A stretch of 64,000 bases of DNA, taken from Candidatus Acidiferrum typicum. GTDB lineage: Bacteria; Acidobacteriota; Terriglobia; Acidiferrales; UBA7541. A model generated the notes under the pieces. It searched no databases. It saw only the letters and a list, made by a program, of their open reading frames with translations, and had not been told where the DNA came from. The DNA lies in NCBI GenBank assembly GCA_025463055.1, contig JAOAPV010000005.1, forward strand, positions 62,001 to 126,000, written 5' to 3'. Positions within the stretch are counted from its first letter, which is position 1. Every line of letters starts with the position of its first letter. Shown piece by piece: positions 16,383 through 46,133 of the stretch. Made by a program: the position numbers and the translations under genes.

Positions 16383-19300
16383 CTAGACCTTCTCTACCTT
16401 GACCAGGAAGCCCTTGAACTCCGGCGTGTATGCGTTCGGGTCGACGACCGTCGGGGTGAGAAGGTTTGCCAGCGTCCTGGCGTCCTTGCCCTCATCCTCG
16501 GCGATACCGCGATAGCCCTGATGAATGGGGAGGCCGATCGGGTAGACTTTCTTGCCGTCGATCATCAACGGCTTGATGCGCTTGGTGACCATCGCTTTTG
16601 CAATGTAGTCTCCACGGATGCTCGAGACTTTTATTTTTTCGCCGCCGGTGAAGCCCATTTCGTTGGCCATCTCCACCGAAATCTCGACAAACGGCTCAGG
16701 CACGAGCTGCACGTTCATGGGATTGTTCTTCGTCCAGTAGTGATAAAGCTCGGTGAGGCGATAGGTGGTGCAGACGACCGTGTAACCGTCCTTGGGCGTG
16801 CCGTATTTATCGTCCGGCGTTTTGAAGCGCTTCACCACGGGATTGTGGGTCTGCTGCGGATGGAAAGGATTGTCAATCGGACTTTCGATCGGTTCGTAGT
16901 GTTCGGGGAACGGCCCATCGGCAAAGGCCGAGAGCGGCGCAAAGATTCGCCCTACGCCCTCCGGGTTCATGATGAACGGGCCCATGTGATCTTTCGGCTT
17001 GGAATCGACCTTGAAATCCGGCACGTCGTTGCCAACCCATTTTTGCTGGCCTTCATTCCACCAGACTTGTTTTCGCGATGGATCCCAGGGCTTGCCGTCC
17101 ACGTCGCATGACGCGCGATTGTAGAGGACTCGGCGATTCGCAGGCCAGGACCAGCCCCATCCCGGATGCACACCCAGGCCCGAAGGATCCGAGGGATCGC
17201 GCCGCGCGGTCTGATTGCCAGCTTCGGTGAATGAGCCGGAGTAAATCCAGTTGCCGCAGGACGTCGTACCATCGTCTTTCAACCAAGCAAAGCCAGGAAG
17301 CTGCTGGCCGGCCTTGATTTGCTGCTTCGTCGCCGGGTCCTCGAGATCCGCCAGCGCCTTACCGTTAACTTCCTTCAATACCTCGGCCAGGGGCGGGCTC
17401 GATGGGTTGCTGTAATTCCAAGTCAGGTTCAGGACGGGATCGGGGAACTTGCCGCCTTCCTTCTTGTATAGCTCGCGGATTTTCAAGAAAATTTGGGCCA
17501 CGATGGCTTGGTCTAGCCGGGCATCTCCGGGCGTCGGCAAGGCGGTATTTTTCCATAGCAGCCAGCGCGCGGAATTGGTGAACGAACCGTCTTTCTCGGC
17601 AAATCCCGCGCAAGGCAAGCGGTACACGGTCGTTTGAATCTGCTTCATCTCGTCCGTGGTGATCCCGGGCGACTTCCAAAACTCGCTGGTTTCATCCGGA
17701 TAAATTTCCCCGACCACCAGGAAGTCCGCTTTTTTCAGCGCGTCGATGTTTTTCTTTGAGTTGGGACCAATCGCTACGCCGTTCATCCCAAAGGCAAGCA
17801 TGCCTTTTACGGTCCCGTTGTACATGTCGTCCCACATCTGCACCCACGAATAGTTGCGATCCACTTTCGGCAGATAATCGAAGGCCCAGCCGTTTTGTTT
17901 AGTGGCCGCGTCGCCATAGAGGGCTTTAAGATAGCTGACCGCGAATTTCGGCGTGTTGCTGGAGTAGTTGAACGAATCCCACGGGGCAGGCTTCGAGGGT
18001 GTCGGCGTAATGCGTTTAATCCAGGCATCGAAGGAAGTGTCCGCAGGCGTGGGAACTTTCAGATAGCCGGGCAAAGAGTCGAAAAGGCCGGCCATGTCTG
18101 TGGCGCCCTGAATGTTGGAGTGCCCGCGCAACGCGTTGACGCCACCGCCCGCGCGGCCAACATTGCCAAGCACTAGTTGCAAAATCGCCGCGGTTCGTAT
18201 GATTTGCGTGCCAAACGAGTGTTGCGTCCATCCGACGGCGTAAATGATCGTGCTGGCCTTCTTCATGTCGCCGTCTTTACGAATCGAAGTATAGAGGTCG
18301 GCGGCCTTGAGGAATTGTTCTTTGGGAATGCCAGTGATGCGCTCGACCATTTCCGGCGTATACCGCGAGTAATGTTTCCTCAGCAGTTGGAACACACAAT
18401 TGGGGTTCTGCAGCGACAGATCGAACTCGACCTTTTCCGGCAGCTTGGGAGCGGCCGGAGAGGTTCCGCCTGGTGGATGCGGCGAGCTATCTCCTCCACC
18501 CCCGCCGGTGCCCGCATAATTCCACGTGGACCTGTCGTAGCTTTGGGTCTTGGCATCGAACCCGGAGAAAACGCCGTCTGTATCACCCGGCAACTGAAAG
18601 CCGGGTCTGACGATAAATGCCGCGTTCGTGAAGTTGACCAGGTAATCTTTCGCGATGCGATTGTTCTCGATGGCATAGCGAATGACGCCGCCGAGGAACG
18701 CGATGTCTGACCCGGCGCGAATCTGGCAAAAGAGATCGGCGACGGCGGATGTGCGCGTGAAGCGCGGGTCCACGGAGATTATTTTTGCGCCCCGCGTGCG
18801 CTTGGCTTCGATGGGCCACTTGAATCCGCAGGGATGGTTCTCGGCAGGATTACCGCCCATGATGAGCATCATGTCGGTATTCTTCATGTCAACCCAGCCG
18901 TTGGTCATCGCCCCGCGTCCGAACGTTGGTCCCAAACTTGAGACCGTGGGGCCGTGTCAAACCCTGGCCTGGTTTTCTAAATGCACGACCCCCAGGGCGT
19001 GCATCGCTTTCACAACCAGATAGTTAAACTCATTGGTATCGGTACAGCCGCCGATCCACGCGAGCGATTCGAGGCGATTTACGGTGTGGCCGGCTGCGTC
19101 CTTTTCGATAAAGGTGTCGTCGCGTGTTTTCTTTACGCGAGCGGCGATTTCATTTAACGCATCATCCCAGGAAATGTCTTGCCAATCGGTTGCACCGGGC
19201 CGCCGCACTTGCGGCTTGAGCAGGCGACGGTCGTTCATAATTTCTTGCTGCAGCGAGGAACCCTTCGGGCAGAGGGTGCCGCGGTTGGTCGGATGATCAG

Positions 19301-19538
19301 GGTCGCCCTCGACGTGCACTACCTGGGCGGTTACATTCTTCGCGCGGTCGCCAATCGTATAGATGATGGTGCCGCAGCCCACCGCGCAGTATGGGCAGGT
19401 GGAGCGCGTTTCGCTGGCACGCGCAATTTTCAGCGTGCGCAACTGTGCGTAAGCAGGCTGGAGGTCGAATCCAAAAACTGCCGCCGCTGTGCCGCCCACC
19501 GCTGTGTACTTAAGGAAGTCACGACGTGAAGGATTCAT
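16383..19538 (-). CDS. fdoG: Formate dehydrogenase alpha subunit, selenocysteine-containing
   Basis: One 1051-residue Mo/W-bis-MGD enzyme oxidising formate to CO2 in the periplasm. It is read through an in-frame TGA at 18957-18959, which appears to split it into 193- and 850-residue pieces. The junction NQARV-U-HGPTVSSLGPTFGRGAMTN matches the active site of the E. coli FdnG/FdoG selenoproteins almost exactly, with Sec at residue 194 (about 196 in E. coli). The N-terminus has a Tat signal (SRRDFLK, then a hydrophobic stretch to AYA), and the [4Fe-4S] cysteines are in CPYCAVGCG and LCPKGSS. GAGG lies six bases before the ATG. It leads the alpha-beta-gamma-fdhE operon. A stop-at-TGA annotation would be wrong. 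Confidence 0.95.
18928..18945 (-). promoter_or_regulatory. SECIS stem-loop of formate dehydrogenase alpha
   Basis: In the mRNA, counting the U of UGA as 1, GGUCUC (15-20) pairs fully with GGGACC (27-32) and leaves the loop AAGUUU (21-26). G23 and U24 fall in the loop exactly where the E. coli fdhF and fdnG elements have the residues recognised by SelB (loops AGGUCU and AAGUCU as I recall them). The stem lies inside the coding sequence just after the Sec codon, as bacterial SECIS elements do. Confidence 0.8.
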
Positions 19539-19591
19539 CGGGGACCTCAGTCCGCGAGAAGAGAAGGCAGGCAGCGTCTCGCAGAATGCTA

Positions 19592-19620
19592 TTCATAGAA
19601 CGTCAATTAGAAACTGTCAA
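19592..19620 (-). promoter_or_regulatory. Sigma-70 type promoter of the formate dehydrogenase operon
   Basis: On the minus strand TTGACA (19620-19615) is followed after exactly 17 bases by TATGAA (19597-19592). That predicts transcription starting near 19585 and a leader of about 45 bases before the alpha-subunit ATG. It lies in the only spacer (132 bases) between the upstream phosphatase gene and the operon. The match to a housekeeping promoter is good; activity is not demonstrated. Confidence 0.65.
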
Positions 19621-38465: not shown

Positions 38466-39084
38466 GCTCACAGTTCTGCTGGTGGACGATCACGCCCTGG
38501 TGCGCAAAGGATTCCGTCGCATGCTGGAGGACGACGCCGCGATCTCTGTTGTCGGGGAAGCCAGCGAGGGCGAGGAAGCAGTGCGGCTGGCGCTTGAGTT
38601 GAGACCGAAGGTTATCGTGATGGATTGCGCGCTCCCCGGTGTCAGCGGTATCGATGCGACGCGGCGCATTCGTGCCAAGATGCCGGATGCTACGGTGCTG
38701 ATGCTGAGCATGCATTCTGAGGACACTTTGGTGCGCCAGGCGTTCGAGGCGGGAGCCCGCGGCTACATCCTAAAAAATGCACTGGAACTGGATTTAGTCA
38801 GCGCTATCAAGCGCGTAGCCGAAGGCCATTTAGTGCTGGATCCGCAACTCACCAAACCCGCGTCGCTCAAAGGCGAGCGAGACAGTGGACTGACCGCACG
38901 CGAACTGGAGATTTTGCGGCACATTGTGGCGGGCAAATCTAACAAGGAAATTGCCGCGGAACTGGGTCTGAGCGCAAATACCGTGGGCGTGCACCGCGCC
39001 AACATCATGGACACGCTCGGAATTCATAAGACGGCCGAGTTGGTGGTTTATGCCATTCGCCACGGCTTGGTGAGCCTTACTTGA
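38455..39084 (+). CDS. NarL/FixJ-type response regulator
   Basis: A 209-residue regulator. The receiver domain covers about residues 5-120, with the acidic pair DDH near 11-13, phosphoacceptor Asp57 in VIVMDCALPG and the Lys in YILKNALELD. The LuxR-type helix-turn-helix is at about 145-205 (LTAREIEILRHI-like LTARELEILRHIVAGKSNKE, NTVGVHRANIMDTLGI). It is encoded directly behind its cognate kinase (11-base overlap) and overlaps the next gene's TTG by four bases. Confidence 0.93.
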   Translation: MADKLTVLLVDDHALVRKGFRRMLEDDAAISVVGEASEGEEAVRLALELRPKVIVMDCALPGVSGIDATRRIRAKMPDATVLMLSMHSEDTLVRQAFEAGARGYILKNALELDLVSAIKRVAEGHLVLDPQLTKPASLKGERDSGLTARELEILRHIVAGKSNKEIAAELGLSANTVGVHRANIMDTLGIHKTAELVVYAIRHGLVSLT

Positions 39085-40775
39085 ACCGCCGCGACTTTTT
39101 GTCACGCTACGGCAAAGCAGGACTTCTCTCGTTAACTATCCCAAGACGACTTACCGCAACATCCGCCGCGCCAACTTTTCGCCTTGTCGACGTCACGCAG
39201 CACGCAGGCATTCAGTTCCAGCACAACAGCGGCGCCTATGGAGGCAAATTGCTTCCGGAGACGCTTGGCTCCGGCTGCGCGTTCCTCGATTACGATGCCG
39301 ACGGCTGGCAAGACATTCTATTGACCAACGGGATGGAGTGGCCCGGCCACAAGCGTCAGCGGTCCACCCTGCGGCTCTACAAGAATAATCGAAACGGCAC
39401 TTTTGCCGACGTGACCAAAGCTGCTGGTCTCGATGTCGAGATGTATGGAATGGGCGTCGCGGTCGGCGACTACAACAACGATGGCTTTCCCGATATTTTG
39501 GTCACCTGCGTGGGGCAAAACAGGCTATTTCGCAACACCGGCAAAGGCACTTTCCTCGATGTGACGCGCGCAAGCGGCTTGAGCGCTCGACAAGCCTTCA
39601 GCACGTCCGCCCTGTGGTTCGATTACGATCGCGACGGCTTGCTCGATCTCTTCGTCTGCAATTATGTGCGCTGGTCACCGGAGCATGACGTCTTTTGCAG
39701 CTTGGACGGAAAGCACAAATCCTTTTGCACGCCGGAAGCATATCGCGGGGATACTTGCTGGCTGTTCCACAATCGGGGAGACGGAACATTTGAGGACGTC
39801 ACGGCGACGAGCGGAATCTTTGACAGCAGCTCCAAATCCCTCGGCGTCGCCATGCTCGACTATGACCAGGACGGCTGGCCGGACTTGCTCGTGGCAAATG
39901 ACACGCAGCCCAATAAACTCTACAAGAACCTTCGCAACGGCAAATTCAAAGACGTCGCTGTCGAAGCTGGCCTCGCGTTCAGCACCGAAGGCAAAGCGCG
40001 GGCCGGCATGGGCGTCGACGCAGCGGATTTCGAGAATTCAGGCAAACCAGGAATCGCCATTACGAATTTTGACAATGAGATGATCGGACTCTATCGAGCT
40101 GCCAGCCCCGGGACCTACGACGATATCTCGATAGCCGCGGGCGTGGGTCTCCCCTCGAAAAACACGTTGGGCTTTGGCTGCTCATTTCTCGACCTCGATC
40201 TTGATGGTGCACTCGATCTTGCCGTCGCCAATGGACACATCGAGGAAACGGTGCGCAACATTCATGGCAATGTCGGCTACGCACAGCCACCGCAGCTTTT
40301 TCTGAATCTGGGCGCAGGAAAATTTCAAGATGTCACCGCCAACGTGGACGGCGGATTTGCCGAGCCCAAGGTCGGCCGCGGTTTGGCATACGGTGATTTT
40401 GATCGCGACGGCGATCTAGATATTTTGCTGACCACAAATAACGGTCCCGCGTATCTGTATCGCAATGATCAGCTCGCCGGAAATCGCAGCGTTCGGTTTC
40501 GGCTCGTGGGGGCAAAATCCAACCGCGACGCCATCGGCGCAATCGTTCGGATTTTTTACAACGGGCAAAGTCAGAGCCGCATGGTGAAGGGCGGTTCAAG
40601 CTATCTCTCGCAATCGGAATTGCCCGTTACCTTCGGATTGGGCAAGCGCGACAAAATTGAGCGCATGCAGATCGAATGGCCTAGCGGAGCGAAGGAAGAG
40701 TTCAAAGATTTGGCTGCAGGCCAAAGCTACCAATGTACAGAAAACAAAGGCATTACACCCATGGCCGGGTTCTAA
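39081..40775 (+). CDS. Tat-exported CRTAC1-like beta-propeller protein (ASPIC/UnbV)
   Basis: A 564-residue exported protein. The Tat-type N-terminus is NRRDFLSRYGKAGLLSL. The body has repeated FG-GAP/VCBS calcium-binding motifs such as DYDADGWQDI, DYNNDGFPDI, DYDRDGLLDL, DYDQDGWPDL and DFDRDGDLDI, implying a beta-propeller. The ASPIC/UnbV domain occupies the last about 90 residues (GAIVRIFYNGQ, IEWPSGAKEEF). The TTG start overlaps the regulator's stop as TTGA. A paralogue at 44427-46133 is very similar. Function is not known. Confidence 0.87.
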   Translation: MNRRDFLSRYGKAGLLSLTIPRRLTATSAAPTFRLVDVTQHAGIQFQHNSGAYGGKLLPETLGSGCAFLDYDADGWQDILLTNGMEWPGHKRQRSTLRLYKNNRNGTFADVTKAAGLDVEMYGMGVAVGDYNNDGFPDILVTCVGQNRLFRNTGKGTFLDVTRASGLSARQAFSTSALWFDYDRDGLLDLFVCNYVRWSPEHDVFCSLDGKHKSFCTPEAYRGDTCWLFHNRGDGTFEDVTATSGIFDSSSKSLGVAMLDYDQDGWPDLLVANDTQPNKLYKNLRNGKFKDVAVEAGLAFSTEGKARAGMGVDAADFENSGKPGIAITNFDNEMIGLYRAASPGTYDDISIAAGVGLPSKNTLGFGCSFLDLDLDGALDLAVANGHIEETVRNIHGNVGYAQPPQLFLNLGAGKFQDVTANVDGGFAEPKVGRGLAYGDFDRDGDLDILLTTNNGPAYLYRNDQLAGNRSVRFRLVGAKSNRDAIGAIVRIFYNGQSQSRMVKGGSSYLSQSELPVTFGLGKRDKIERMQIEWPSGAKEEFKDLAAGQSYQCTENKGITPMAGF

Positions 40776-40878
40776 TGCTTTAACGTTATTGCGGGGTGTG
40801 TAGCGGGACGATATAAAACCCACACATCGCCTTCCTGCGAGCTTCTTTTAGCGCCGCCCGGAGGCACCCCAAGCATTC

Positions 40879-40912
40879 GCGGCCGGGTAGCACCCATCCG
40901 GCCGCATTTTTT
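40879..40912 (+). terminator. Terminator-like hairpin ahead of the cytochrome gene
   Basis: GCGGCCGG, 11-base loop, CCGGCCGC, then ATTTTTT: an 8-base-pair GC-rich stem followed by a T run, the form of an intrinsic terminator. It probably ends the kinase-regulator-CRTAC1 transcript. Because it sits just before the cytochrome ATG at 40953, it could also act as an attenuator in that gene's leader; an upstream GTGT/ACAC pairing near 40795-40826 is weaker. Confidence 0.65.
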
Positions 40913-40952
40913 GGCAGATGCGTCGAGGCGTTCAAGAGTGGAGAAACGCGCG

Positions 40953-43811
40953 ATGGAACGTTGGCGCTTGCGAAGCCTGTTGGCCCTTGTGGCAAGCGCG
41001 ATTTATTTGTACGGATTTCCTTCCGCCACAATTACATACGGAACGCTTGTTCTCTTCCACGTCGCCGCTGGCATTCTGCTCACCGCCCTGCTGCTTCCCT
41101 ATCTTTTCCGACTGCTACGTGTGGATGCGCCGCTCGCTCGCCTCGGCTGGGTATTTTTGGCCATGGGCGCAGTGCTCGGCATCGCTTTGATTTTTGTCGG
41201 CACGCTCAATCGCCTGAAGCCGTGGCTATACGCCCACATCGCTCTATGTGTGGTCGGTACCCTGTTCGTCGCGACCGCGTGGTTGGCGTCGCGGGGTTGG
41301 CTGGGAAGCACAGCACCTCAACGTGTTTCCCGGTTTGCGGGGCTGGTACTCGCCACAGCGGTAATCGCCGCGGGAGCGTGGTGGTCCCGTGAAATCGCAT
41401 GGAAGAATGCGAATCGCATCGTGAACCCGCAGATGCCCGCTGCGTCGATGGATGGCGAAGGCGACGGTCCCCAGGGCAAGTTCTTCCCCAGCTCCGCGCA
41501 AACCAAACATAATGGCTACATCCCCGCAAAATATTTCATGCAGTCCGATGCCTGCCAGCGTTGCCACGCGGACATATACAAGCAGTGGTACAGCTCGGCC
41601 CATCATTTCTCGTCGTTTAACAATCAGTGGTATCGCAAGAGCATAGAGTACATGCAAGGGGTCGCCGGAGTACGCGCTTCGAAGTGGTGTGCGGGCTGCC
41701 ACGATCCAGCGCTGCTTTTCAGCGGACTTTTTGACAAGCCAATCAAGGAAATCGTCGATCGGCCGGAAGCAAAAGCGGGACTGAGCTGCCTGATGTGCCA
41801 CAGCATCGTGCAAGTGAAAAGCACGATGGGGCAGGGCGATTTTGTTTTGGAGTACCCGAAGTTGCACGAACTGGCGGCCAGCGACAACCCCGTTATCCGT
41901 ACACTTCACGATTTCCTGGTGCGCGTAAATCCGGAGCCGCATCGCAGAACCTTTTTAAAGCCGTTCATGCGCACGCAGACCGCGGAGTTCTGCGCGTCGT
42001 GCCATAAAGTTCATCTCGATGTCCCAGTGAACCATTACCGCTGGGTGCGCGGCTTCAACGAATACGATAATTGGCAAGCCAGCGGCGTTTCCGGCCAAGG
42101 CGCGCGTTCTTTCTATTATCCGGCGAACTCCATGATGTGCGCGGATTGCCACATGCCGCAGGTGCGCTCCGCCGATCTCGGCAATATTAATGGTTTCGTG
42201 CATTCTCACCGCTTTCCGGGCGCAAACACCGCTGTCCCCACGGCGAATCAGGATCAAACGCAACTCGAGCTGAGTCAGAAATTCTTGCAGGACAAGCAGC
42301 TCAGTGTGGATATCTTTGCGATTTCACCCGCAACGAACGAAATTGCTGCTCCGGCTGGCGTGAAAATGGGCCGCCCAGAGTTGTCCACTTCATTTGCTGT
42401 GGGCGAAGAGGCGGAGACTTCTTTGCCAAACGGCCCCGCAGGCGAGGCGCGCCCCATCACTGCGCCGCTCGGACGGGTGGATGCTGCCGTGCGCCGGGGC
42501 GACGACGTCCGCGTCGACGTCGTTGTTCGAACGCGGAAGGTCGGCCACTTTTTTCCTGGCGGAACCATCGACGCCTTCGATGTGTGGCTCGAGCTACAGG
42601 CCGTCGATGAAAAAGGGCAGACCCTTTTCTGGAGCGGTAAGGTCGAGGATGACGGCAAGGGTCCCGTCGAAAAAGGGGCGCATTTCTACAAGTCGCTGCT
42701 CATCGACGCGCATGGAAATCCGATTAATAAACGAAATGCCTGGGCCAATCGTGCCACGGTCTACGTGCATTTGATCCCGCCGGGTGCGGCGGACACTGCG
42801 CACTACCGCCTGCACATTCCGGAAAATGCGGGCGAGAAGATCACGCTGCACGCCAAGCTGAACTATCGGAAATTCATGTGGTCCAATACGCAGTTCGCCT
42901 TCGCCGCCGCGGCGGATTCTCAGCAGGCACCCAATGCAGTGACTCCCGACTATGACGACCGCAAATGGCTCTTCAAGGGCATCGACCCGAAACTAATCGC
43001 CGGCGAGCTGAAAACCATTCCAAATTTGCCTGTTATTACCGTGGCAGAAGATACGAAGACGCTGAATGTGGTGGCGAGAGCGGCTGCCGCAGCTCAACCT
43101 AAGGTTTCTCTTGCGAAAGAAGATTGGTCACGCTGGAACGATTTCGGCATCGGTCTGTTCCTGCAAGGCGACCTGAGAGGTGCCGCGGCGGCCTTTCAAA
43201 AAGCCGCGGACGTCGACCCGCAAAATGCCGATGGTTGGGTGAACATTGGTCGCGCCTTAGTTCAGGAGGGCGACACCGGCGGGGCGCGTATAGTGTTGGA
43301 AAAAGCGCTGGCGCTGAAACCCGGACTGGCGCGCGCAAATTTCTTTTATGCACGAATTTTGAAAGAAGAAGGCAAATACGACGACGCTATTGCGCGATTG
43401 AGAGATGTGCTCGCGAAATATCCGCGCGACCGCGTCGTGCGCAATGAAGTCGGACGCATCTTATTTCTGCAGAAGGAATATGCTGGCGCCATCGCGGAAT
43501 TCAATCAAACGCTCTTGATTGACCCCGAGGATCTGCAAGCCCATTACAACTTGATGCTTTGCTACAGCGGGCTGGGCGATGAAGCCCACGCCAACGAGCA
43601 CAAGGAACGCTATCTTCGATTCAAGGCCGATGAATCTGCGCAGGCCATCACCGGTCCGTACAGGCAGACGCACCCCGAAGATAACAACGAGCGGCAACCG
43701 ATTCACGAACATGTCTCTGTCGCACTGAACGCTCCTCCAAAGAGAGCGTTGAAACGCCGGACGATAACGCCATCGACCGGCAGCGCAAGTCAATCCGGCG
43801 GTTCGCATTGA
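40953..43811 (+). CDS. Membrane-anchored pentahaem cytochrome c with TPR domain
   Basis: A 952-residue protein. About four hydrophobic helices fill the first 140 residues. Five CxxCH haem sites follow: CQRCH (201), CAGCH (246), CLMCH (279), CASCH (347) and CADCH (396). A beta-rich region comes next, and TPR repeats occupy about 715-890 (WVNIGRALVQEGDTGGARIV, IARLRDVLAKYPRDRVV). The haem region should be periplasmic. The ATG at 40953 is preceded by GGAG at a moderate distance. The AhpD-like gene starts 34 bases after the stop, so the two are probably in one operon. Exact electron partners are unknown. Confidence 0.88.
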   Translation: MERWRLRSLLALVASAIYLYGFPSATITYGTLVLFHVAAGILLTALLLPYLFRLLRVDAPLARLGWVFLAMGAVLGIALIFVGTLNRLKPWLYAHIALCVVGTLFVATAWLASRGWLGSTAPQRVSRFAGLVLATAVIAAGAWWSREIAWKNANRIVNPQMPAASMDGEGDGPQGKFFPSSAQTKHNGYIPAKYFMQSDACQRCHADIYKQWYSSAHHFSSFNNQWYRKSIEYMQGVAGVRASKWCAGCHDPALLFSGLFDKPIKEIVDRPEAKAGLSCLMCHSIVQVKSTMGQGDFVLEYPKLHELAASDNPVIRTLHDFLVRVNPEPHRRTFLKPFMRTQTAEFCASCHKVHLDVPVNHYRWVRGFNEYDNWQASGVSGQGARSFYYPANSMMCADCHMPQVRSADLGNINGFVHSHRFPGANTAVPTANQDQTQLELSQKFLQDKQLSVDIFAISPATNEIAAPAGVKMGRPELSTSFAVGEEAETSLPNGPAGEARPITAPLGRVDAAVRRGDDVRVDVVVRTRKVGHFFPGGTIDAFDVWLELQAVDEKGQTLFWSGKVEDDGKGPVEKGAHFYKSLLIDAHGNPINKRNAWANRATVYVHLIPPGAADTAHYRLHIPENAGEKITLHAKLNYRKFMWSNTQFAFAAAADSQQAPNAVTPDYDDRKWLFKGIDPKLIAGELKTIPNLPVITVAEDTKTLNVVARAAAAAQPKVSLAKEDWSRWNDFGIGLFLQGDLRGAAAAFQKAADVDPQNADGWVNIGRALVQEGDTGGARIVLEKALALKPGLARANFFYARILKEEGKYDDAIARLRDVLAKYPRDRVVRNEVGRILFLQKEYAGAIAEFNQTLLIDPEDLQAHYNLMLCYSGLGDEAHANEHKERYLRFKADESAQAITGPYRQTHPEDNNERQPIHEHVSVALNAPPKRALKRRTITPSTGSASQSGGSH

Positions 43812-43845
43812 TCTCACTCGAAGCTGAATGCACAGGACCTGATTC

Positions 43846-44412
43846 ATGACTTGGATCAAGACTGTTTCGATGGAAGACGACGAGCGCGTTAAGAAAGCTA
43901 TGTTGGCGCAGCGCGCGGTCTATCCCATCGAGTATGCGACGCCAGTCCATCCCGAAAACAATGGCGAAAGCTCGAGCATTGTGGCATCTCACTCGCTGAT
44001 TCCTGATGCCCTGTTTCACGCCTTCAGCACGTTTGGTGCTTTGATGTCTCCAGACCTGCCATTGCAGCGCCGGCAGCATGAAATGATTGCAACCATGGTT
44101 TCCGTCGCGAACCGGTGCGTGTATTGAATCGAATCCCACGCAGAGTTTCTGCGTCGCGTCACTTTGGATAAAGCGCTCGTGGAGTCCCTGCAGAGCGACT
44201 ACCAATCGGCGGAAATTAGCACGCAGGATCGCACGATGCTCGATTACGTGGTGAAGCTGACGAAGGATGCGACCAAAGTTTCCCGCGATGATCACGCGAA
44301 ACTTAGAGCCGTTGGCTTCGACGACCGCGGCATCTTGCAAATCACGCTAATCGCATCCTGGTTCAATTACATCAATCGCGTCGCGGATGCGCTGGGAGTC
44401 GGCCGCGATTAA
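43846..44412 (+). CDS. AhpD-like (carboxymuconolactone decarboxylase) protein, predicted selenoprotein
   Basis: One 188-residue protein read through an in-frame TGA at 44125-44127, which otherwise splits it into a 93-residue and a later fragment. The TGA codon falls at residue 94 within NRCVY-U-IESH. In peroxidase-related AhpD/CMD proteins this position is the second catalytic cysteine of CxxCxxxH, so the site becomes C91-x2-U94-x3-H98. The rest is full length and intact, with the family's [15 protein letters not shown] and [16 protein letters not shown] end. A perfect hairpin follows the TGA (44138-44154). The genome must decode Sec for the formate dehydrogenase. Probably a thiol/selenol peroxidase-type enzyme. 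Confidence 0.82.
44138..44154 (+). promoter_or_regulatory. SECIS-like stem-loop of the AhpD-like gene
   Basis: Starting 11 bases after the TGA, ACGCAGA pairs perfectly with UCUGCGU around GUU; opening the last A-U pair gives a 5-base loop AGUUU. The loop is the same as the core of the formate dehydrogenase element (AAGUUU) and contains the GU needed for SelB recognition. Seven uninterrupted pairs so near the codon are unlikely to be chance. Confidence 0.75.
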
Positions 44413-44426
44413 ACAATGAGGCTACC

Positions 44427-46133
44427 TTGAAGCAATTCAACGTCCTATTGGCTGCATTTGCGCTCATTGCCGCAGCGACTGTTGCGGCACATAACGGCGG
44501 AACGGCGGGAACCTCTGCCGTCACGTTTCGCGATATCACGCAGCAATCTGGAATTCATTTCACCCACAACAATGGAGCATTCGGAAAGAAATTTTTGCCG
44601 GAAACGCTGGGCCCAGGTGTCGCTTTCATTGATTACGACAATGATGGCTGGCCCGATATTTTGCTGGTCAACGGTATGGATTGGCCAGGCCACGCCCAGA
44701 GGCACACCACACCCAAGCTCTATCACAACAATCACGACGGAACGTTCACCGACGTAACGCACAAGGCCGGTCTCGACGTGGAGATGTACGGCATGGGTGT
44801 TGCCGTAGGCGACTACGACAACGATGGCTTGGCCGATCTCTTTATCACCGCGCTGGGACAAAGCCGCCTCTTTCACAACCACGGTAACGGCACATTCACC
44901 GACGTGACGCAGAAGGCCGGACTCAGCGGTCCTCGCGAGCTGAGCACAAGCGCCGCATGGGTGGATTACGATAAGGATGGCCGCCTGGACCTCGTGGTTG
45001 GCAACTACGTGCAATGGACACAGGAATCCGATCTCTACTGTACGCTGGACGGCAAGAACAAATCGTACTGCACTCCCGAATCCTACAAGGGCACGGCGGC
45101 GCGGCTCTGGCATAACCGGGGTGACGGAACGTTTGAAGATGTTACGCAGAAAGCGGGGCTTGGCGAACCCACCTCCAAAACAATGGGCATCGCCGTCCTC
45201 GATTATGACAATGACGGCTGGCCCGATCTTCTGTTTTCAAATGACACGCAGCCCAACAAGCTCTACCGCAACAATGGCAACGGTTCCTTCTCCGAAAAGG
45301 GCGTGATCGCCGGCGTGGCATTCAGCGAAGATGGCGTCGCGCGTGCCGGCATGGGCGTGGACGCCTCAGATTACGATCATTCCGGCTTTTCCAGCGTTAT
45401 GATCACCAACTTTTCGAACCAGATGCTCTCGCTCTATCACAACGAGGGCAAGGGCTTGTTCGTTGATGAAGCACCGCAATCTGCGATCGGACGCGCCACA
45501 CTTCTCACACTAGGCTTCGGCTGCTTCTTCTTCGATTACGACCTTGACGGCTGGCCAGATATTTTTGTGGCCAACGGTCACATCGATCCTGAAATTCAAA
45601 AAGTGCAAGCGAACGTCAAGTACGCGATGCCACCACACCTGTTTCGCAACCTTGGGAAAGGAAAATTCGAAGAAGTGACGAGCACGATGGGGTCCGCATT
45701 CATCGTTCCGCGCGTCGGCCGCGGCGCCGCTTATGCGGACATCAACAATGACGGACGCCTCGATTTGCTGCTCTCCACGAATGGCGGTCCTGTCTATCTA
45801 TTTCGCAACGAAGCGCAAGCTGCCGCTGCCTCGAATCGCAGCTTGCGACTCAAGCTCGTGGGCACAAAATCCAACAAGGATGGGATCGGCGCTGTCGCGC
45901 GAGTTACTTCCGGTGGCGACACACAAACCCAGATGCTGCGCAGTGGCTCGAGTTATCTCTCTTCGAGCGAACTCGTCCTAACTTTTGGCCTGGGCCAGCA
46001 CGACAAAGCTGACGGCATTGAAATTCGCTGGCCCAGCGGCCAGGTCGATCACCTATCAAGTGTAGCTGCCGGTCAGACCGTTACCATTACAGAGGGAAAA
46101 GCCCAAACCTCAGCTCGTCCGTACGCGAAATAA
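44427..46133 (+). CDS. Secreted CRTAC1-like beta-propeller protein (ASPIC/UnbV)
   Basis: A 568-residue paralogue of the protein at 39081-40775. It has a Sec-type signal (about residues 1-21) where the other has a Tat signal. Calcium-type FG-GAP/VCBS motifs include DYDNDGWPDI, DYDNDGLADL, DYDKDGRLDL, DYDLDGWPDI and DINNDGRLDL, and the ASPIC/UnbV domain ends the protein (IEIRWPSGQVDHLSSV). The start is TTG at 44427 with GAGG close by. It is 14 bases downstream of the AhpD-like gene, and a hairpin follows the stop. Confidence 0.88.
   Translation: MKQFNVLLAAFALIAAATVAAHNGGTAGTSAVTFRDITQQSGIHFTHNNGAFGKKFLPETLGPGVAFIDYDNDGWPDILLVNGMDWPGHAQRHTTPKLYHNNHDGTFTDVTHKAGLDVEMYGMGVAVGDYDNDGLADLFITALGQSRLFHNHGNGTFTDVTQKAGLSGPRELSTSAAWVDYDKDGRLDLVVGNYVQWTQESDLYCTLDGKNKSYCTPESYKGTAARLWHNRGDGTFEDVTQKAGLGEPTSKTMGIAVLDYDNDGWPDLLFSNDTQPNKLYRNNGNGSFSEKGVIAGVAFSEDGVARAGMGVDASDYDHSGFSSVMITNFSNQMLSLYHNEGKGLFVDEAPQSAIGRATLLTLGFGCFFFDYDLDGWPDIFVANGHIDPEIQKVQANVKYAMPPHLFRNLGKGKFEEVTSTMGSAFIVPRVGRGAAYADINNDGRLDLLLSTNGGPVYLFRNEAQAAAASNRSLRLKLVGTKSNKDGIGAVARVTSGGDTQTQMLRSGSSYLSSSELVLTFGLGQHDKADGIEIRWPSGQVDHLSSVAAGQTVTITEGKAQTSARPYAK

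Follow-up and report, generated by a model that had tools for sequence, protein, structure and literature searches.

A predicted AhpD-like selenoprotein with an in-frame UGA codon and adjoining hairpin conserved among Acidobacteria

Within a 64,000-nucleotide stretch of the Candidatus Acidiferrum typicum genome (hereafter the window), we identified a gene of the AhpD/CMD family that very probably makes a full-length AhpD-like selenoprotein, with its one in-frame UGA read as selenocysteine by way of SelB and a hairpin adjoining the codon. This reading had been proposed in a first-pass annotation of the same DNA, and from comparative sequence analysis it is now strongly supported by a conserved TGA, by synonymous codons frozen at the hairpin and by the presence of Sec genes in the genome. 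Translation confirmed that the frame is broken solely by the TGA and ends in a TAA (Table 1). The codon also lies where it had been placed, at the midpoint of the protein and at the position of the second Cys of AhpD/CMD proteins, as homologues with Cys there demonstrate. In profile searches the read-through protein passed the cut-off of 81.8 bits for TIGR01926 ('peroxidase-related enzyme') with a score of 116.2, and it scored 32.8 bits against the Pfam CMD family (PF02627; gathering score 23). Its active-site motif reads R-C91-V-Y-U94-I-E-S-H98, and the first codon is an aligned ATG in 88 of 91 distinct relatives. Membership of two NCBIfam families, NF041238 (AhpD_rel_CFYUT) and NF053654 (GroundWater_YciW), was considered and rejected, as the scores of 59.4 and 30.7 bits lie far under the respective thresholds of 175 and 310. 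The marks of an AhpD-like selenoprotein found here are a TIGR01926 score over the cut-off, a UGA aligned with the Cys of homologues as CxxU, a hairpin within the bacterial SECIS limits and Sec machinery in the genome. Both the machinery and the element can be read from the sequence; in the decoding step, SelB carrying Sec-tRNA would bind the hairpin just 3' of the UGA, leading to insertion of selenocysteine at residue 94.

Table 1. Features discussed in the text, by position in the window (alignment A3 comprises 28 chosen rows and is a selection of loci)
Feature	Position	Strand	Details
AhpD/CMD-family selenoprotein gene (predicted)	43846..44412	+	188 aa, Sec at residue 94, stop TAA included
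In-frame TGA, probably read as selenocysteine, second residue of CxxU	44125..44127	+	TGA in 110/110 loci (91 distinct genes)
TGC, Cys91, first residue of CxxU, putative resolving cysteine	44116..44118	+	Cys in 91/91 distinct close genes; >90% in alignment A3
CAC, His98, active-site histidine; codon overlaps hairpin foot	44137..44139	+	Invariant across 28 A3 rows; CAC in 90/91
GAA, Glu79, active-site glutamate, proton relay by analogy	44080..44082	+	Invariant across 28 A3 rows; spacing as in M. tuberculosis AhpD
SECIS hairpin (predicted)	44138..44154	+	7-bp stem 44138-44144/44148-44154, loop GUU 44145-44147
Formate dehydrogenase-N alpha subunit, UHGP motif	16386-19592, TGA at 18959	-	TIGR01553 1339 bits

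The hairpin and conservation of the UGA codon

Folding bore out the perfect 7-bp stem and GUU loop described in the first-pass annotation, the strands ACGCAGA and UCUGCGU being joined by seven Watson-Crick pairs. The distance of 11 bases it gave between TGA and stem was incorrect, as the stem starts after 10 bases and the loop after 17. With a loop of 3 nt, a stem of 7 bp, G in first place, a spacing of 17 nt and an MFE of -9.0 kcal/mol (44125-44165), the hairpin satisfies the limits of the bacterial SECIS model set out in the Fig. 2 legend of PMC13188914 (a loop of 3-9 nt with G as its first or second base, a stem of 4-16 bp, a spacing of 16-37 nt and an MFE <= -7.5). The window holds a second selenoprotein gene, for a formate dehydrogenase, whose TGA has a 7-bp hairpin with the loop AGUU; the likeness between the two loops that had been pointed out holds, GUU occurring in both. 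Judged on one sequence, the hairpin is weak evidence, because its folding energy is ordinary when compared with shuffles (z 0.0 to -1.1 over four stretches). The two strands of the window contain 1656 TGA triplets, of which nine have a Watson-Crick stem of at least 7 with G as the first or second loop base; allowing G-U pairs raises the number to 77. An Rfam search of the window and of the hairpin stretch gave zero matches. What lifts the hairpin far above chance is its conservation in relatives.

A scan of genome contigs yielded 279 pattern matches and 247 confirmed relatives, the best 80 of which were kept; together with 30 from a genome search these made up 110 loci with 91 distinct coding sequences, some contigs having been reached twice. 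TGA stood at codon 94 in every one of these loci, whilst the final stops of the 91 genes varied (41 TGA, 32 TAG and 18 TAA). As deposited, the records of the best 80 relatives are mostly labelled Acidobacteria (including groups 1, 2 and 4), Pyrinomonadaceae and the like, with a few labelled KSB1, Latescibacterota, Gemmatimonadetes or Betaproteobacteria; one locus with the last label (L103) is probably a mislabelled record. A draw of 396 genomes supplied 18 more loci, 58-74% identical, which all carried the TGA, and in 14 of them the 17 hairpin bases were identical to those of the window (L175, L184, L185 and L186 differ by at least one base).

The standard code does put a stop in mid-gene here, and the TGA might be a random nonsense mutation in an AhpD gene that is decaying or was misread. 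We consider such a pseudogene or sequencing error exceedingly improbable and reject it on conservation in relatives: the same codon is TGA in 91 distinct genes from many assemblies, change on both sides of it falls mostly on third positions, and the active-site residues after it are invariant. Relaxed selection past the TGA, which had been named as a sign against a selenoprotein, was absent, the ratio of nonsynonymous to synonymous codon change (N/S) being 0.55 after the TGA versus 0.84 before it in a random fifth of gene pairs; third codon positions change most on either side. We measured codon entropy in the 91 distinct genes over 116 degenerate codons with amino-acid conservation of at least 80%. 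Mean relative entropy was 0.06 in hairpin codons 98-103 (CAC GCA GAG TTT CTG CGT) versus 0.88 in the 110 others (Mann-Whitney p 2e-5), and all but one of those 110 exceeded the highest value among the hairpin codons, the one being codon 93. Third-position change on both sides of the TGA, taken together with frozen codons at the hairpin, argues that the protein is under selection along its whole length and the RNA in addition at the hairpin.

Codon 93 (44122-44124), directly 5' of the TGA, is TAT in 90 of the 91 close genes and so is frozen like the hairpin; among additional orthologues and the distant relatives, both TAT and TAC occur at this place. This frozen TAT may matter for the context of the UGA.

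The hairpin was also followed into 28 TGA-bearing relatives of 33-75% identity (L132-L160 without the Cys orthologue L142, which was left out of the pairing counts), ten of which are orthologues at 62-75% identity and the rest more distant. When position and loop were left free, a stem of at least six pairs was possible in 27 of the 28, at most two or three bases away from the same position (for example, ACGGGGC-GGG-GCUCCGU and ACGGAGA-GGA-UCUCCGU), and L143 reaches five at best under the same freedom; four rows carry stems of the CCGGCGC type in another register. In a set of 109 distinct TGA sequences, in-register pairing holds for 95.8% of stem cells, and shifting the register by 1-6 bases lowers this to 67.1% at most; an individual stem pair fails in up to seven of the 28 diverged sequences. 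In an alignment of the window gene with the 28 TGA rows (A1, 29 rows), 86.7% of cells pair in the fixed register; shuffles give 80.7%, and shifts of 1-3 bases no more than 55.2%. The covariation score of A1 was 0.220 versus 0.138 shuffled, and none of 500 shuffles scored as high; double-change pairs and further pair types were not above shuffles, 338 and 337 of the 500 being as high. Run on the full set of 29 A1 rows, RNAalifold gave no consensus structure. On 19 chosen rows (A2), it returned a 6-bp stem with two compensated pairs; this set excluded the other-register rows L154, L157, L159 and L160 as well as L133, L134, L135, L136, L138 and L139, which have the same hairpin sequence as the window. 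The stem is largely kept in the 28 diverged relatives, partly through compensatory changes. TGA-bearing TIGR01926-like proteins only 33-46% identical to the window protein, the rows L143-L160 among them, occur in Acidobacteriota, some genomes having two copies.

Selenocysteine machinery and a cysteine orthologue

The selenocysteine genes that the first-pass annotation proposed looking for are present in the genome itself, where profile searches recovered selA (560.7 bits), selB (353.8 bits) and selD (348.9 bits), along with one clear tRNA-Sec (65.2 bits) that ARAGORN calls tRNA-SeC with anticodon TCA. Orthologues at E <= 1e-50 were found in 32 of 61 genomes, every one with TGA, and selA was over the cut-off in 30 of these 32; of the other two, G012 has a partial selA at a contig end and G026 mere scraps of it, and their assemblies run to 740 and 800 contigs. 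A selA match is lacking altogether in four of the 61 genomes, none of which has a TGA copy. Weaker, stop-free matches from the same search are, judging by their low identity, probably paralogues or other AhpD proteins. Ten further genomes with a TGA orthologue (among 16 chosen) all had selA over the cut-off, and no selA at E <= 1e-20 was detected in G138, a 75% complete genome with a distant TGA copy. When 149 genomes of the phylum were drawn, 36 of 39 matches at E <= 1e-18 carried one TGA; the three without a stop were a Cys orthologue in G073 and two copies in G186, which are 31-32% identical and come from a genome that has selA. In the draw of 396 genomes, which overlaps with that of 149, 29 of 30 matches at E <= 1e-45 carried TGA. 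The gene is patchy in the phylum, as a match at E <= 1e-45 occurs in only 29 of the 396 genomes. Homologues with neither Cys nor TGA at the position had been proposed as refuting evidence; among the close relatives examined, all but one have TGA, and that one has Cys.

The exception is L142, from the 99% complete genome G073. It shares ∼61-62% identity with the window protein, and its frame is open, with TGC in place of the TGA. Its hairpin is lost and the first active-site Cys has become Thr (T-R-Y-C, or TxxC); it is the sole Cys orthologue found. In a tree of 28 rows it pairs with the Sec-bearing L136 (support 92/88, not starred), and both lie inside a starred group of 18 rows that is otherwise TGA-bearing. 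No selA was detected in G073 at E <= 1e-20, and the best selB match is a 403-aa frame under the cut-off, which we took for EF-Tu. With 150 of 503 tRNA candidates scored, the best tRNA-Sec match (47.1 bits, just above the gathering score) is a tRNA-Ser by ARAGORN and a second falls below the gathering score. In G073, therefore, the TGA and the hairpin are missing along with, as far as tested, the Sec machinery.

This orthologue bears on two other explanations. The UGA might be decoded as one of the ordinary amino acids, Cys or Trp, giving a selenium-free protein, and any form of recoding would presumably conserve the codon alike. We regard this as very unlikely and reject it on the Sec set carried by the genome and the linked loss in G073, where the gene encodes Cys and has neither TGA nor hairpin and where, as far as tested, searches detected no selA, selB or true tRNA-Sec; in addition, the hairpin fits the bacterial SECIS model, and UGA serves as the final stop in 41 of these same 91 genes. 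Alternatively, two separate chains might be made, a 93-aa first half and a second half restarted at TTG 44164, from which an 82-aa ORF does exist past the TGA. Such a split, which we think scarcely credible, would omit residue 94, His98 and the hairpin codons, all among the most conserved parts of the gene, and the Cys orthologue is a single stop-free frame; it was rejected on both counts. Returning to the selenoprotein, we tentatively suggest, with rather less than even confidence, that it belongs to a separate AhpD-like subfamily with a nearly obligate need for Sec. On this view Sec has hardly ever given way to Cys in Acidobacteriota, the one escape found has changed both active-site residues (TxxC for CxxU) in a genome where Sec genes went undetected, and a plain exchange of Sec for Cys would not work in this enzyme. 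The naturally occurring TxxC orthologue is a useful comparison for understanding why Sec is kept.

Predicted fold, genomic context and relation to known selenoproteins

The structure model of the protein has a mean pLDDT of 92.3 and is predicted to adopt an all-helical AhpD/CMD fold, its best solved match being 6k40 (TM 0.84). Residues E79, C91, U94 and H98 are spaced by 12, 3 and 4 residues. The protein would most likely act as a thiol/selenol peroxidase in which Sec takes the second position of CxxU in the active site E79-C91-U94-H98: the selenol of Sec94 would attack a peroxide or disulfide and Cys91 would resolve the product, in a peroxidase or thiol-disulfide step.

Gene neighbours indicated no pathway. 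At 39081-46133 of the window, the AhpD gene and a cytochrome c554/TPR gene lie between two genes of the FG-GAP/UnbV (CRTAC-like) type. Of 80 loci, some with short flanks, 16 show the order cytochrome/TPR, AhpD, CRTAC-like (FG-GAP/UnbV). No neighbour family was found in more than 27 of the 80, and at least four loci matching contigs of the same genus (L059, L077, L103 and L119) have no cytochrome gene within the available flanks. The gene looks like that of a free-standing enzyme, because most of the 80 loci share none of the window's neighbours.

A gene that reads as broken in soil Acidobacteria would be an intact selenoprotein gene. Moreover, the frozen synonymous codons, together with a Cys version found where Sec genes went undetected, indicate that predicted TIGR01926 selenoproteins are under real selection, and the conserved 17-base hairpin could serve as a handy annotation signature in soil metagenomes.

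The first-pass annotation pointed to AhpD-like selenoproteins in earlier surveys, and rightly so (PMC1088965, PMC2398784, PMC9312934, PMC13188914). The Sargasso Sea survey lists 27 AhpD-like selenoprotein sequences with CxxU under COG2128 (PMC1088965), and 299 'AhpD-like 1' and 70 'AhpD-like 2' sequences are given for ocean samples (PMC2398784). Another study has two 'AhpD-like (COG2128)' selenoproteins and, separately, four Acidobacteria selenoproteins in three families (PMC1794560). Reviews list AhpD-like (COG2128 or TIGR01926, CxxU) as a selenoprotein family predicted in the 2005 survey (PMC9312934; PMC13188914, Table 1), their tables naming one representative, MCB9421940.1, and one of them places the family under 'predicted with high confidence' (PMC13188914). 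Our literature search found nothing joining AhpD, Acidobacteriota and selenocysteine, and only PMC1794560 with the spelling Acidobacteria. The type of selenoprotein had thus already been predicted; what the sequence comparisons add is a well-supported member of that type, conserved across many Acidobacteria.

Among known systems, the AhpD-like 'peroxidase-related' proteins of the solved structures 3c1l, 2pfx, 6k40, 2prr and 2oyo are similar in sequence and fold; in the alignments, 3c1l and 2pfx have Cys where the acidobacterial protein would have Sec. The catalytic residues of M. tuberculosis AhpD are given as Glu118, Cys130, His132, Cys133 and His137 (PMC3141380), and Glu118-Cys130-Cys133-His137 have a spacing identical to that of E79-C91-U94-H98; the fold, however, is remote from our model (TM ∼0.5, E 0.04 or worse), and the fifth relay residue, His132, is Tyr93 in the acidobacterial protein. 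NF041238 and NF053654 comprise, by name and by weak scores, related AhpD-domain (seleno)proteins, families to which the acidobacterial protein does not belong. The Sargasso Sea and ocean AhpD-like selenoproteins, as described in PMC1088965 and PMC2398784, belong to the same TIGR01926 family, with CxxU and a predicted SECIS element after the UGA with a loop G; whereas those are marine metagenome sequences, the present case is an acidobacterial clade with dense evidence of conservation and a Cys orthologue.
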